From Patescibacteria group bacterium (GTDB lineage: Bacteria; Patescibacteriota; Minisyncoccia; UBA6257; 2-01-FULL-56-20), in assembly GCA_028865305.1 (NCBI GenBank), contig JAGWKM010000006.1, positions 1 through 39,270 on the forward strand: 39,270 nt of DNA, read 5' to 3'. This document shows positions 4,453 through 37,107 of this stretch, in pieces. Every line of letters starts with the position of its first letter. The first letter of the stretch is position 1. The notes beneath the pieces were generated by a model, which had not been told where the DNA came from, ran no database searches, and worked only from the letters and a program-made list of their open reading frames with translations. Made by a program: the position numbers and the translations under genes.

Positions 4453-4513
4453 TTCTCACTTGTAGAAGGAACTTATTTCAGCCCGGCGGCAGGAAAATCC
4501 CACACGGAAAAAT

Positions 4514-4551
4514 GAAGAAAAAACAAAAAAAAGAAGTGACGCGCTACGTCA
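4514..4551 (-). terminator. Intrinsic terminator of the zinc-finger gene
   Basis: On the minus strand the sequence TGACG-TAGCG-CGTCA (4551-4537) forms a 5-bp hairpin and is followed by a long T-rich run: CTTCTTTTTTTTG then TTTTTTC. The hairpin starts at the stop codon (4549-4551) of the gene at 4549-4737. The position and T-run fit an intrinsic terminator that ends this single-gene unit before the iteron region. Confidence 0.7.
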
Positions 4552-4737
4552 GGTGGATCGGAGGGATCTCATGGGGCGCGTTCCGAGTTGACGGTCAATT
4601 TCCCGTTGTTCTTTGATCTTTTGGATTATACGGCAGGATAGGCAGACTTGTCCGCTTCGGGTGAAGTGTTCGGCAGGGTACTCGGCTTGGCATTTCCTGC
4701 ATCTTCTCGGCGGGAGGGTTTTGTCCTTACGTCTCAT
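4549..4737 (-). CDS. Single-gene unit: zinc-finger protein, 62 aa
   Basis: This basic 62-residue protein has a CRKC at residues 13-16 and CLSC at 32-35, a four-cysteine zinc finger with 15 residues between the pairs. A charged helix follows (RIIQKIKEQREIDRQLG). Small Zn-finger proteins of this size often bind DNA or modify host transcription. It has its own promoter (4743-4773) with only 5 nt between the -7 box and the ATG, a palindrome inside that promoter, and its own terminator. This isolated, controlled setting between the two divergent units makes it the best candidate here for an early regulator. That role is inference. Confidence 0.75.
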   Translation of the reverse strand: MRRKDKTLPPRRCRKCQAEYPAEHFTRSGQVCLSCRIIQKIKEQREIDRQLGTRPMRSLRST

Positions 4738-13715: not shown

Positions 13716-14888
13716 ATGGCTATCAATCTTTATACCGGAAATCTCGGTTATCAGCAAGAACCTAACAGTTTTGTAAGGTACGTTGATAAAGACGTTTATT
13801 TACGGCAACCGTACGCGACACCCGTTCATCAGATCACGCAGAATGACATGAACCGTATCGCGGTAACGAACTTTAAGTATGAATGGCAACGTGATTCGCT
13901 CCGCGACCAATTCATGCAACTCATCGCCACCTACGCGGGCGGCGGGACGATGACGACCTACACGGACGCAACCAATATCTCGTTCTTTCAGGTTGGCGAC
14001 CAGATCGTCAACACGGGGACACAAGACGTGCTTGTCGTCACGGCGATAGACGCTGTGAACAGCATCGTCTCGCTTTCCGCGCAGGATGGAACAACGGTCA
14101 TTACCGCAGGTCAGGTTGGCGACCAGATCGAATATCTGGCGACACCCATCTCGCAGGGCGGACTAGTCCAGCAAGCGGTGAACACCGCCATTGACCTGCC
14201 GTTCAACTATACGACCACGATCACGACCCCGCTCAAAGTAGATACGACCACATTGCGGTCGAAACTCTATCAGGGCAATCAGTGGACGTACCTGCACGGC
14301 AAGAAGATATTTGAACACAAGTGGCAGTATGAGAACTCCGCCATTTGGAGCAAAATATCTGCGGCGGCGGACACGAACGGGGACTACAAGACCACGATGA
14401 ACGGTCTGTGGTATCTCCTCAGCGATCATGTGAGCTATGCTCGCGGCGGGTTCTCATACGCCGTCATGGATGCGTGGCTCCGCGATCATGTGTTCCGTTA
14501 CGGTTCACGGCAGAAGATTGTTTTTATGAACAATAAATTTGCCTCCGACCTTAACGGCTCGTTCTTCCAGACCATCCGCCTGAACTTGGGCGAGGAGAAG
14601 TTCAACGATCAGTTCAAGCTGAACTTCACGACATGGACTTCCGCTTACGGAACCGTCACCATTATCCTCATGCCGCAGATGCAGCGCACCCAGCGTGCGA
14701 ACAACACGGTATTGGGTATGGCGATGGCGGTCGAACCGCGCCTGTTAAAGGGTGCGACGCTCGAACCGACGTACCTGATGGATAACATCCAGAACCCGCG
14801 CTCACTCTCGCGTGAAGCGGCTCTGGTAGCCCAGCTTGGCGTTATCTACGGCGACAGCAACATCGGCTCCATCCTTTACGAATCGTAA
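13716..14888 (+). CDS. Major capsid protein, SU10/DUF5309-like, 390 aa
   Basis: This is the main shell protein. The pattern FKYEWQRDSLRDQ..., FQVGDQIVNTGTQDVLVVTAIDA, then a long helix (QWTYLHGKKIFEHKWQYENSAIW) and late strands (PQMQRTQRANNTVLGMAMAVEP) agrees with coat proteins of the SU10/DUF5309 group of HK97-fold capsids. The VGDQI segment occurs twice (near residues 88 and 130), fitting the inserted beta domain of that group. Position after scaffold and length support the call. The N-terminal 20 residues are short, so no cleaved delta domain is present. Its stop overlaps the next start (TAATG). Confidence 0.85.
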   Translation: MAINLYTGNLGYQQEPNSFVRYVDKDVYLRQPYATPVHQITQNDMNRIAVTNFKYEWQRDSLRDQFMQLIATYAGGGTMTTYTDATNISFFQVGDQIVNTGTQDVLVVTAIDAVNSIVSLSAQDGTTVITAGQVGDQIEYLATPISQGGLVQQAVNTAIDLPFNYTTTITTPLKVDTTTLRSKLYQGNQWTYLHGKKIFEHKWQYENSAIWSKISAAADTNGDYKTTMNGLWYLLSDHVSYARGGFSYAVMDAWLRDHVFRYGSRQKIVFMNNKFASDLNGSFFQTIRLNLGEEKFNDQFKLNFTTWTSAYGTVTIILMPQMQRTQRANNTVLGMAMAVEPRLLKGATLEPTYLMDNIQNPRSLSREAALVAQLGVIYGDSNIGSILYES

Positions 14889-33396: not shown

Positions 33397-36300
33397 ATGG
33401 ACTTACCCAATGCGTTCGTGTCCTCCATCATCCCCGACAACGCAGACCTCGCCGCGAACAATGGTGAGACAGCAAAAACAACAGGAAAGTTTCGCGGGGC
33501 AGGGGAAGATGTAGGGAATAAAGATTGGATAAAAGAACACAACGTCCCTCCCGCAAAAGGCAGAGAAATATCACCCGGTCAGGTCAATGCGAATGTTCCA
33601 CGTGAAACATCGCCGTCGTTCTGGGATAACCTATGGAACGGCGCGGCTCCTCTCGTGCAGATACACCCTACTCCTATCAATCAGTTATTCGGCGCACCGA
33701 TAGACCAAGTGAAACAAGGGGCGGCTGAGCTCGGCACGAACCCGCTTGCGGGGGCGGCGCGGATGTTGAATGGGGCTGTCGGAACGGGGCTGAACCTGAC
33801 AGGTATTCCCGTTGCCATGAACTACCTTCCCGATGCGACCAAGAACGCCCTGATGCTTCCCGTTACAGGAGCCGCAAAACTCGAAGACTACGGAGAGCGT
33901 GGGCTTGGCTGGCTTGCCGATAAGTTGGGTATTGACGGGAATATGGGCATGAATCCGCAGACCGCCGCAGAAGCCACAGGAGCCATGCACGAACTGAACC
34001 AGAACTCGGCGGGGTTATTAGGTGCGCTTCTCACGGGAAAGATAACGGCAGGGCTGAAAGGCAATTACTCCAACCCTTACGACCCGAACTACAAACTTAT
34101 GGGTAAAGGAACTCCTTCGCCAGACCTTACCCCGTTCGTTCCCGAATTTAACCCCACCGGCGCAGACGTATCGAGCGGGATTCCGCCGTTCGCTGGGGCA
34201 TGGAACCCGCAGACGGGGGCGATGATGGACGCTTCGTTCCGCAACATGGACGTTCCTTACACGCCCGCAGGCAGGCAGATAAACGCCCCTGTCGTGAGTA
34301 ATTGGCTCGATGCGACGCTCCCGCCTATGGGAAGCGAAGCCAGACCTTTCCAGCTTCCCGATGTTACAGTAACGCCGGATGCCGGACCGAGCAACCCCGT
34401 CGCGGTAAACGAGGGTGTGCGGAGTTCGGCTCCGGTTGTTGAAGCGTCGAATGGTGCGCCCGCCGCGCCCGATAAACCGATGACGTGGAGTGAGTTCGTG
34501 CGCTCGGAGGAAAAGGTTGATCCCAGAACCATCAAAGCCAACACGCCCGACCATGTTCGATTGTATAAAGCATACGGGAATTATCGTCGCTCGTTTAACG
34601 CATTGCACGATGACGCAACTGATCGTATGGCACAAGAAATAGAAGAAAAAAAAAAGGAGGTAGCTGATGCCATTGATAAAGGGCAAGTCCAAGCAGGTAC
34701 GCAGTCAGAACATCAAGGAAATAGTAACGTCGTACAACCAAACGGGGAAGATAGGCAACAGCCGTCCACCCAACAAACGCCGGGCGTTAGCCCAAGCGGC
34801 GGCAATAGCGTACAGGATGCAGCGGGGCAAGTAACCCCAGAAACTACGCCTACGCCGCAAGCAAACCCTGTTAGCGATGAGATTAAAGGGAAGATAGACG
34901 ACGCTATCGAAAAGACCAAAGCAGATATACAGGCGCATTTGAAGGGCGGCGGCAATCAGTTGTCATCTTTTATTCCTCTCGACCCTGTACTGTTCGGGCA
35001 TTACACGAAACTCGGCGCGTTATACATAGGCAAAGGGATAGTGAATTTTGCTGATTGGTCGGCACAGATGGTCGCGGATGCTGGCGAGGCGATAAAGCCC
35101 CACCTGAAAAAGATATGGGACGCGGCGCAGGAACAGGTAAAAAGCGGTCTACCGTTCGTACAGCAAGAGAAGCCATCGGGGTTTGCGGCGAATATCAATC
35201 TCGACAAGCTGACCTCATCGGACGAGATAAAAAGCGCCATCCTCGATTATGTTCATTCCCATCCCGAAGAAGTGGCGGAAGCGCGGGCAAAGCGGACGCT
35301 CGAAGAAATCAAATCAGGCGCATCCAAGATGAAAATTCCTACGGTGAAAGTGGGGACATCCGGGAAAGCCGCGACATCGGAGGAGCAGTATTACATCGCT
35401 ACGCGCATGAAAGAAGCGTCGGAGGAAGCGGTAGCGGCAGTAAAGAAAGCCCAAGAGACGGGGAGCGACGACGACAGAATAGATGCAGAGAAGAAAACAG
35501 CCCAAGCCAACGCATTATGGAACGCCGTCATCGGGTTTCGCGCAGAGGCAGGGCGTTCGCTCCGTGTCTTGGCAGACATCAACGACATCCTCGACCTTGA
35601 CCCGCTCAATCCTATCCGTAAATTTTTACTTAATGCCATCCGCACGTCGCAGGACGAACTCGCCGCAGACATGGCGACGCTCGACCCGACGGCTCCCGAC
35701 TTCACGGAGAAAGCCCGTGAGATCATCCGCCGCCATTACAAGTTCAACATCTGGGACGAACTCTCGCGCATCATCCAAGCCGGCTATCTCACAAGTCCCG
35801 CGACCATCGGCAAGATTTTAGCGTCGCACGGAGTATTTTTAACAGTTGACCAGATAGCCAAGTTCCCGTCTGCGGTAGCAGATTATTTTGTATCGAGGTT
35901 GTTTGATTCTCCCCGTCAGGTTTCCATCCCTACGATGGAGAGTGAGTGGCGGAGCGTGAAAGACGCGGCGACCAAAGGCATCAGGGACGGGTTGAAGATA
36001 CTCGTCAAGGGGAATAAGACCAATGAGGACATCGGCGTAGAGAATATCAACCGCATAGACATAGAAGAACAGTATCAGAATATGCGGCGCATCCCGACAC
36101 GCTGGAAACTCGTCAACAGCTATATAAACACAGTAGGGAATGTGCATGAAGCGGCATACCGACCCTTGCGTCAGTTTGCTCTGACCGAAGCCATGAGCGA
36201 GGAAGCACGGCTCAAAGTGATAAACGACGGGGGCGACGCGAAGTATTGGTACGACCATCCCACGCCTGAAATGGAAGCGAACGCGATAGCCGCAACGGAA

Positions 36301-37107
36301 GAAGCCATCTTTACCAACCAGAACGGTATCTCGGACGCGCTCTCGGCGTTCAAGAAGAAGCTACCCGGCGCAGGTCGCCCCGTCGCTACGGCTGTCATCC
36401 CGTTCACGGTCATCCCTGTCAATGTGGTAGCTCGTGCATTAGACTATTCGGGTATAGGCGGTCTTTACAACGGCATGAAAGCGGCGCGGATGCTCTTTGC
36501 CAAAGCGGGGATAGACCCTGCGTTCCAACGTCAACTGTCGCTTTCTCTCGGACGGGGCGCGACGGGGATAGGATTACTCGCCATCGGTTCGATGTTGGCA
36601 CAGAAGAACTTGCTCACAGGGTACAGCCCAAAGAGTTTTGAAGATCAGGGACGGCTCACCGTAGGCGATAAAGAAGCGCAGGTGAACCAAGCCGTGAACC
36701 CGATAGGAAACATTCTGACGCTTGGAGCCACGCTTCAAGAAGCGAATGACGGCAAGAATGTTAATTGGCTGAAAACGGCAGGACAAACGATGAATGACCT
36801 TCCATTGGTGCGGTCTTCAAAAGAGATAGCGGACATGGCACAGGGAAGTTCGGCGGCGATAGGTTCGTTGGCGGGTGGTATCATTCCTGCGGGTGTAGCT
36901 GGTCTGGCGGGACAGATGGACGATTCAGAGCGCAACCGTAAGACCATCATGGACTACATTCAGAACCGTACTCCGATATGGCGGCAATCGTTACCATCGA
37001 AGGACATCCCCGAAACCAACCGATTATTCGACCCGTTCAACACACGGCAAGCCGGTGAGACTGCGCCCCGCAAAGAGCGTCCCTTCAAAGCAAAGAAACT
37101 GCGCTAA
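33397..37107 (+). CDS. Giant virion/ejection protein, 1236 aa
   Basis: The start ATG 33397 follows the previous stop by 2 nt. The protein has a disordered N-terminus, a helical region, a Gln/Pro/Asn-rich linker (about 424-505), a GYLT/DPVLFGHYTKLGALYIGKG-style domain near 540, long helices to about 900, then Gly/Ala-rich possible membrane segments near 985-1020 (AVIPFTVIPVNVVARAL). This layout is common for large phage internal virion proteins and MuF-polyvalent-associated proteins, and the gene order matches P22 gp16 or T7 gp16-like proteins. It may form the DNA channel. Its linker region contains a nested gene, a slippery A10 run and, near residue 66, a parS site. Confidence 0.7.
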   Translation: MDLPNAFVSSIIPDNADLAANNGETAKTTGKFRGAGEDVGNKDWIKEHNVPPAKGREISPGQVNANVPRETSPSFWDNLWNGAAPLVQIHPTPINQLFGAPIDQVKQGAAELGTNPLAGAARMLNGAVGTGLNLTGIPVAMNYLPDATKNALMLPVTGAAKLEDYGERGLGWLADKLGIDGNMGMNPQTAAEATGAMHELNQNSAGLLGALLTGKITAGLKGNYSNPYDPNYKLMGKGTPSPDLTPFVPEFNPTGADVSSGIPPFAGAWNPQTGAMMDASFRNMDVPYTPAGRQINAPVVSNWLDATLPPMGSEARPFQLPDVTVTPDAGPSNPVAVNEGVRSSAPVVEASNGAPAAPDKPMTWSEFVRSEEKVDPRTIKANTPDHVRLYKAYGNYRRSFNALHDDATDRMAQEIEEKKKEVADAIDKGQVQAGTQSEHQGNSNVVQPNGEDRQQPSTQQTPGVSPSGGNSVQDAAGQVTPETTPTPQANPVSDEIKGKIDDAIEKTKADIQAHLKGGGNQLSSFIPLDPVLFGHYTKLGALYIGKGIVNFADWSAQMVADAGEAIKPHLKKIWDAAQEQVKSGLPFVQQEKPSGFAANINLDKLTSSDEIKSAILDYVHSHPEEVAEARAKRTLEEIKSGASKMKIPTVKVGTSGKAATSEEQYYIATRMKEASEEAVAAVKKAQETGSDDDRIDAEKKTAQANALWNAVIGFRAEAGRSLRVLADINDILDLDPLNPIRKFLLNAIRTSQDELAADMATLDPTAPDFTEKAREIIRRHYKFNIWDELSRIIQAGYLTSPATIGKILASHGVFLTVDQIAKFPSAVADYFVSRLFDSPRQVSIPTMESEWRSVKDAATKGIRDGLKILVKGNKTNEDIGVENINRIDIEEQYQNMRRIPTRWKLVNSYINTVGNVHEAAYRPLRQFALTEAMSEEARLKVINDGGDAKYWYDHPTPEMEANAIAATEEAIFTNQNGISDALSAFKKKLPGAGRPVATAVIPFTVIPVNVVARALDYSGIGGLYNGMKAARMLFAKAGIDPAFQRQLSLSLGRGATGIGLLAIGSMLAQKNLLTGYSPKSFEDQGRLTVGDKEAQVNQAVNPIGNILTLGATLQEANDGKNVNWLKTAGQTMNDLPLVRSSKEIADMAQGSSAAIGSLAGGIIPAGVAGLAGQMDDSERNRKTIMDYIQNRTPIWRQSLPSKDIPETNRLFDPFNTRQAGETAPRKERPFKAKKLR
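33594..33609. promoter_or_regulatory. Perfect parS-type site TGTTCCACGTGAAACA
   Basis: The 16-mer matches TGTTNCACGTGAAACA, the bacterial chromosomal parS consensus bound by ParB, at every defined base. It lies within the giant ejection gene (coding about Asn-Val-Pro-Arg-Glu-Thr at residues 66-71). A chance match to 15 fixed bases in this genome is roughly 4 in 100,000. The phage has no visible ParA/ParB. Confidence 0.75.
34646..34667 (+). other. Slippery A10-G run with -1 stop at TGATG: candidate frameshift site
   Basis: Ten As (34646-34655) precede G. In the main frame the codons AAA AAA AAG include A AAA AAG, the dnaX-type slippery heptamer. A -1 slip at codon 420 would read GGA GGT AGC TGA, ending the product at 423 residues, and that TGA (34665-34667) shares its A with the ATG of a nested gene. 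TGATG junctions are used elsewhere in this genome. Either programmed frameshifting or a sequencing error in the run is possible. Confidence 0.5.
34667..34834 (+). CDS. Nested 55-aa protein inside the giant ejection gene
   Basis: ATG 34667 opens 55 codons in the +1 frame. GGAGG (34656-34660) stands 6 nt before it, the best Shine-Dalgarno of the genome. The protein reads MPLIKGKSKQVRSQNIKEIV then GKIGNSRPPNKRRALAQAAA and IAYRMQRGK. It matches the outline of a small phage family (MPL.KGKS...  ..TGKIGNSRP..  ..A.AIAY...) that I recognise but whose function is not known to me. It is highly basic, so it might bind DNA. In the other frame this stretch is a low-complexity linker, which fits the nested gene being the constrained one. 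Confidence 0.75.
   Translation: MPLIKGKSKQVRSQNIKEIVTSYNQTGKIGNSRPPNKRRALAQAAAIAYRMQRGK

Follow-up and report, generated by a model that had tools for sequence, protein, structure and literature searches.

Can a small phage gene with a perfect Shine-Dalgarno (SD) sequence of its own lie whole inside a giant gene and still be used there, and if so, how did it come to be enclosed? The question is raised by a locus in the 39,270-nt contig analysed here (the window), where a gene of 55 codons is nested in another of 1236. The features concerned are:

33397–37107, + strand: host gene for a DarB-like giant phage protein of 1236 aa, with a phrog_10089 match and no Pfam match
34600–35502, + strand: DarB-like phrog_10089 match of the host protein (residues 402–702, E 8e-12)
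34646–34655, + strand: A10 run, which includes an in-frame A AAA AAG heptamer at 34650–34656
34654–34661, + strand: Shine-Dalgarno sequence AAGGAGGT of the nested gene, a perfect SD
34667–34834, + strand: nested gene, 55 aa, phrog_2423 family, in the +1 frame of the host gene
35047–35070, + strand: FADWSAQM motif of the host protein, common to other giant phage ORFs

That a 55-codon gene with a strong SD lies wholly within the 1236-codon gene in another frame, as the original prediction had it, is confirmed by the coordinates: the nested frame, +1 relative to that of the host, runs from ATG 34667 to the last base of its stop codon at 34834, and the GGAGG of AAGGAGGT ends 6 nt before the ATG. 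Among 27 scanned starts (26 genes between 9125 and 37107 and the nested one) this is the longest SD, and it stands out because many neighbouring genes lack one in the same simple scan, which found no SD at 14 of the 26 starts, that of the giant gene included. Several of the genes between 9125 and 33394 start on ATGA or TAATG junctions.

The product of the nested gene had also been assigned to a recognisable phage family, and it does match the phrog_2423 profile (E 1.8e-10, 41.7 bits). All 21 family members of our alignment A3, 12 of them from annotated phage regions, match phrog_2423 at E ≤ 0.001, and residues M1, P2, L3, K5, G6, S8, N15 and A46 are invariant across 49 family sequences. The nested protein has in common with phrog_2423 and with PF20106 (DUF6496) the pattern MPL[IK]KG...N...QAVAIAL and its small size and basic character; searched against Pfam it matched no family at E ≤ 1, the PF20106 cutoff not being reached, while 4 of the 21 relatives match PF20106 at E ≤ 1 and the nested copy of another locus, L027, lies narrowly above its cutoff (24.8 vs 24 bits). 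AlphaFold2, given the 49 sequences, modelled two helices with a mean pLDDT of 88.4, and the small protein is predicted to be a basic two-helix hairpin; a fold search of the PDB with this model returned 51 matches at E ≤ 10 and none at E ≤ 0.001. Within the genome to which the window belongs, the nested copy is the sole family match.

The host ORF starts at ATG 33397. The only family match of its product is to the DarB-like phrog_10089, confined to residues 402–702, and no Pfam domain was found at E ≤ 1, hence no recognised LPD or enzyme domain. The part of PMC5512222 cited here describes DarB as structural in the P1 virion head, and an ejection function would be plausible for the giant protein of the window. 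For this protein and the portal, tblastn on the phage collection found no relatives, and a search with the gene preceding the host gene likewise found none. A match of the N-terminal 422 residues to L023, covering residues 75–124 only and lying in a tape-measure-like ORF, was taken as chance. Searches for relatives in the phylum or its kin returned the window's own contig and one match (E 5e-4) from 379 genomes, and the own contig only from 101 genomes. As these searches brought up no close relative of the window's phage, conservation is seen only at a distance. The genome to which the window belongs, as a single 39-kb contig, comprises 2.0 Mb in 388 contigs and has 8.07% contamination; the listed genomes of the source phylum and family measure 0.4–1.1 Mb, and among the 379 sampled genomes the nested family occurs only in the window's own. 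Given the contamination, the discrepant genome size and the absence of the family elsewhere in the sample, the organism that hosts the window's phage is uncertain.

Comparison with other phage-like loci, suggested alongside the original prediction, recovered the nested arrangement in nine of them (L027, L065, L067, L080, L097, L164, L186, L264 and L265). In L027, where it was detected by a profile search of five records, the small gene is in the same +1 phase and has AGGAGGTG 6 nt before its ATG. Ten of 223 distinct family genes, a proportion that is not a population frequency because the loci were picked by similarity to queries, are fully contained in open frames of 700 or more codons on the same strand, and all ten share the +1 phase; each of the other four frames, one on the same strand and three antisense, gives 0 of 223 at that length. 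Antisense open frames, whose lengths served as a measure of chance, reach at least 300 codons over the frames of 5 of the 223 genes, with a maximum of 604. The census covered the + strand of 258 oriented loci, drawn from among the matches listed in wider scans (in one scan the best 80 of 430), and genes identical over 90 bases were counted once; second fetches and window copies (L022, L028, L031–L034, L044, L201–L204 and L213) were left out. Three family genes in short same-strand hosts were not counted as nested (L135, 240 codons; L053, 178; L179, 191), and the L179 host frame matches its near relative L175 in three frames, so that open frames of that size may be chance. All ten nested loci are metagenomic contigs, and in five the fetched locus cuts one end of the host, at 5' in L097 and at 3' in L164, L186, L264 and L265. 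When whole records were searched, the nested copy was the sole family member in those of L027, L065, L067, L080 and L097. Among 14 records with giant genes of the FADWSAQM type, only that of L027 (the same as L044) has a nested copy; the other 13, which may be fragments, have no family member at all.

In annotated phages, genes of phrog_2423 and PF20106 are usually separate, whereas the window copy is embedded. The family gene is a separate CDS in all 12 annotated phage regions (L030 and L049–L059), which include phages of Pseudomonas, Vibrio, Thalassomonas, Enterobacter, Prochlorococcus and Synechococcus, and in three of these (L030, L049 and L059) it overlaps the preceding gene by 11–20 bases. 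Over the gene, the frame in host phase is stop-free in 7 of 102 distinct free-standing copies (at most the first 44 codons; mean 3.2 stops) and in 7 of the 7 copies then taken as nested, including the later excluded L135, although nested copies are recognised by their open host frame and its openness is therefore no independent test. Stops in most free-standing copies do imply that an open host-phase frame is not the default. For 12 of 168 family genes, an upstream frame in host phase stays open for 80 codons or more and overlaps the small gene by exactly 11 bases before it ends, and extending such an upstream gene would carry it on in the nested-type phase. At L002 (6001–7413) and L014 (1215–2561) the family pattern forms the beginning of far longer ORFs, with 481 and 462 open codons, and these in-frame long ORFs are a further architecture beside the separate and the nested. 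On L168, a contig assigned by binning to a Thermoplasmata archaeon, positions 21–1334 encode the C-terminal portion of a giant protein like that of L065 (50.6% identity), and a free-standing small gene with an SD follows about 3 kb further on (4455–4598); this contig begins inside the giant gene, and an upstream nested copy would fall outside the view. Similar small genes with no SD and similar upstream bases occur at L179 (4763–5338), L144, L150, L157, L158, L162, L163, L166, L173, L175 and L177, mostly in Bacteroidota-type MAGs.

The ten giant hosts are a heterogeneous set. At E ≤ 0.001, BLAST ties the window to L027 and L065, L080 to L264, and L164 to L186, and leaves L067, L097 and L265 alone; the gene after the L067 host matches the C-terminal half of the L027/L065 giant, and from these ties and this match about five host groups can be counted. 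A weaker tie joins the window and L097 (E 0.004), and remote kinship among some host groups is possible. The DarB-like phrog_10089 occurs in the hosts of the window, L027, L065, L080 and L186; the L080 host also has LPD38 (E 2.1e-34), that of L186 InPase and LPD23, and that of L097 phrog_9880. The L067 and L164 hosts have no match in PHROGs or Pfam, and those of L264 and L265, which were searched against Pfam only, have none there.

Whether the nested frame is used was judged by its start and by its conservation. Length alone is uninformative, as the ten hosts hold 29 other ATG-initiated ORFs of at least 43 codons in the +1 frame. None of these 29 has an SD match of at least 5 bases, and among five such ORFs in the +2 frame one does. 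Matches of at least 5 bases precede 7 of the 10 nested starts vs 39 of 541 other +1-frame ATGs of the same hosts, and those of at least 6 bases precede 5 of 10 vs 9 of 541. By the same test no SD was found at the nested starts of L097, L164 and L186; the last two come from Bacteroidota MAGs, and Bacteroidota rely little on SD sequences. In all 45 pairs of loci, the nested proteins are more similar to each other than are the host-frame products over the same stretch, with mean identities of 51.7% vs 30.0%. It is very improbable, then, that a captured gene has fallen silent here and survives as a relic only because the host frame keeps it open: the three starts with no SD would suit such a relic, and both the enrichment of SD sequences at nested starts and the better conservation of the nested protein speak against it. 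The prediction that the main-frame product over the nested gene is a linker was also supported, this stretch being poor in hydrophobic residues. The overlap is poorer in order-promoting residues than the host mean in all ten hosts, and falls in the lowest 11% of host windows in nine; L067 is at 43%, its overlap being hardly poorer in hydrophobic residues than the rest of the host. From these comparisons, the small gene is very probably translated by internal initiation while embedded in the linker of the giant gene, and our confidence is slightly tempered by the 13 of 14 host-type records that lack the gene and by the possible remote kinship of hosts. Compatible with an embedded, translated gene, and a real though distinctly less probable alternative to repeated capture, is a history in which nesting arose once and then spread by domain shuffling of the giant genes. 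It would accord with the one common phase, with the similar host read-outs over the nested gene, with weak ties such as that between the window and L097, and with the well supported branches of a FastTree phylogeny (47 columns), which force only two or more changes. That tree is poorly resolved; on it the ten nested tips need 9 changes, against a shuffled mean of 9.9, and 71 of 500 shuffles were as low. The roughly five host groups, moreover, have no mutual BLAST matches at E ≤ 0.001, and the single phase is explainable by the availability of starts, as the hosts hold 541 ATGs in the +1 frame vs 59 in the +2 frame. Changes on the tree, weak as it is, and the dissimilarity of the hosts together favour several captures.

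The A10 run raises the separate question of whether the host frame is read straight through. It is the longest homopolymer in the window, where about 0.15 such runs would be expected by a first-order estimate. The sequence confirms that A AAA AAG lies in the host frame and that a −1 slip there would lead to a TGA on the nested ATG: the slip would add GGS and stop at 34665–34667, for 423 aa in total. In the other shifted frame the stop is a TAG at 34661–34663, and both stops fall within six bases of the nested ATG. One-base stop/start junctions do recur in the window, as had been claimed (TAATG at 14888, 15067 and 32198). The further proposal, that slippage yields a 423-residue form and a coupled 55-aa product, was not supported. 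Neither the run nor the junction is present at any of the nine other nested loci; A AAA AAG does occur in L067, 38 bases upstream, and TTTAAAA in L164, and neither yields a TGATG-type junction. A stimulatory RNA structure was not found at 34610–34760, where folding resembles that of shuffled sequences (z-score −0.04), so that among the marks of programmed −1 frameshifting the slippery heptamer is present, and a stimulatory structure and conservation in relatives are not. The strong SD of the nested gene also makes coupling unnecessary. Slippage at the A10 run, whether ribosomal −1 or transcriptional, that would end the host at TGA 34665 or TAG 34661 after about 423 aa and couple the nested translation to it, appears unlikely on this evidence. 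We consider it quite improbable that the run length itself is an assembly or sequencing error, in which case the host would end just before the nested gene and the latter would be an ordinary separate gene. A run of 9 or 11 A would indeed end the upstream frame at TAG 34661 or TGA 34665; however, no stop interrupts the nine other hosts along the nested gene, codon scores of the window's host frame remain positive across the overlap, and past the nested gene the next in-frame ATG, GTG or TTG, a TTG at 34939, lacks an evident SD. In L024, L026 and L027, in addition, the related giant genes are single ORFs of 1552, 1404 and 1347 aa; a continuous giant protein is thus normal, and uninterrupted reading of the window's host is credible.

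Taken together, we favour a model in which a small phage gene, elsewhere usually separate, sits whole in the +1 frame within the linker of a giant multidomain gene. Some ribosomes would read the 1236-aa protein straight through, and others would initiate internally at AAGGAGGT to make the 55-aa protein, the linker tolerating the sequence that the other frame of the small gene imposes on it. Embedding in giant genes probably happened more than once, and may have come about when the small gene inserted into a linker or when the genes flanking it fused across it. What points to this model is family membership, full containment, the enriched SD, the stronger conservation of the nested frame and the nine further loci in the same phase, all of them properties of sequence. 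In its fullest form, the account we find somewhat better than even is that a separate gene was repeatedly captured whole in the disordered linkers of unrelated giants, always in the +1 frame, and is still functional; the small gene would be old and the linker newly forced, a reverse overprinting, and in the window the A10 run may add a 423-aa form. Such nesting looks like a recurrent and real way of packing one gene inside another, and conserved phage genes inside giant ORFs are likely to be skipped by gene callers.

Lambda Rz1 is one of the embedded phage genes already known, and intermediates between a separate and an embedded gene have so far been missing. Lambda Rz/Rz1, as set out in the part of PMC6139136 cited here, offers the closest architectural likeness, a small gene wholly within the +1 frame of another phage gene, and the nested gene of the window has the same layout, wholly inside, on the same strand and in the +1 frame. 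The Rz and Rz1 products are partners (PMC6139136, same part). According to that part of PMC6139136, spanin families do not combine embedded members with separated or overlapped ones, and the routes proposed to embedded spanins are duplication with deletion, or stop loss. The phrog_2423 family differs in that some of its members are separate genes and others lie embedded in giant hosts that differ: besides separate genes, this one small family includes genes with a slight overlap, in-frame fusions and genes fully embedded in several differing hosts, and with four architectures in one family the routes to embedding become directly comparable. No paper on the family motif, phrog_2423 or DUF6496 was found in the open-licence PMC literature, and among the papers listed there on overlapping genes no title or abstract concerned this family or genes nested in polyvalent phage proteins. 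The hosts of L080, L186 and the window resemble the polyvalent and DarB-like phage proteins treated in the cited part of PMC5512222, which are giant and multidomain; the main text of that paper uses 'overlap' 0 times and 'nested' only for a hairpin fold, and embedded genes go unmentioned there. Finally, the locus resembles the overprinted virus genes described in the part of PMC8903798 cited here in that two proteins come from one stretch of DNA. Overprinting in its usual sense gives rise to a novel nested protein; in the present case the nested gene is a member of a widespread family, and it is probably the host linker that adapted.
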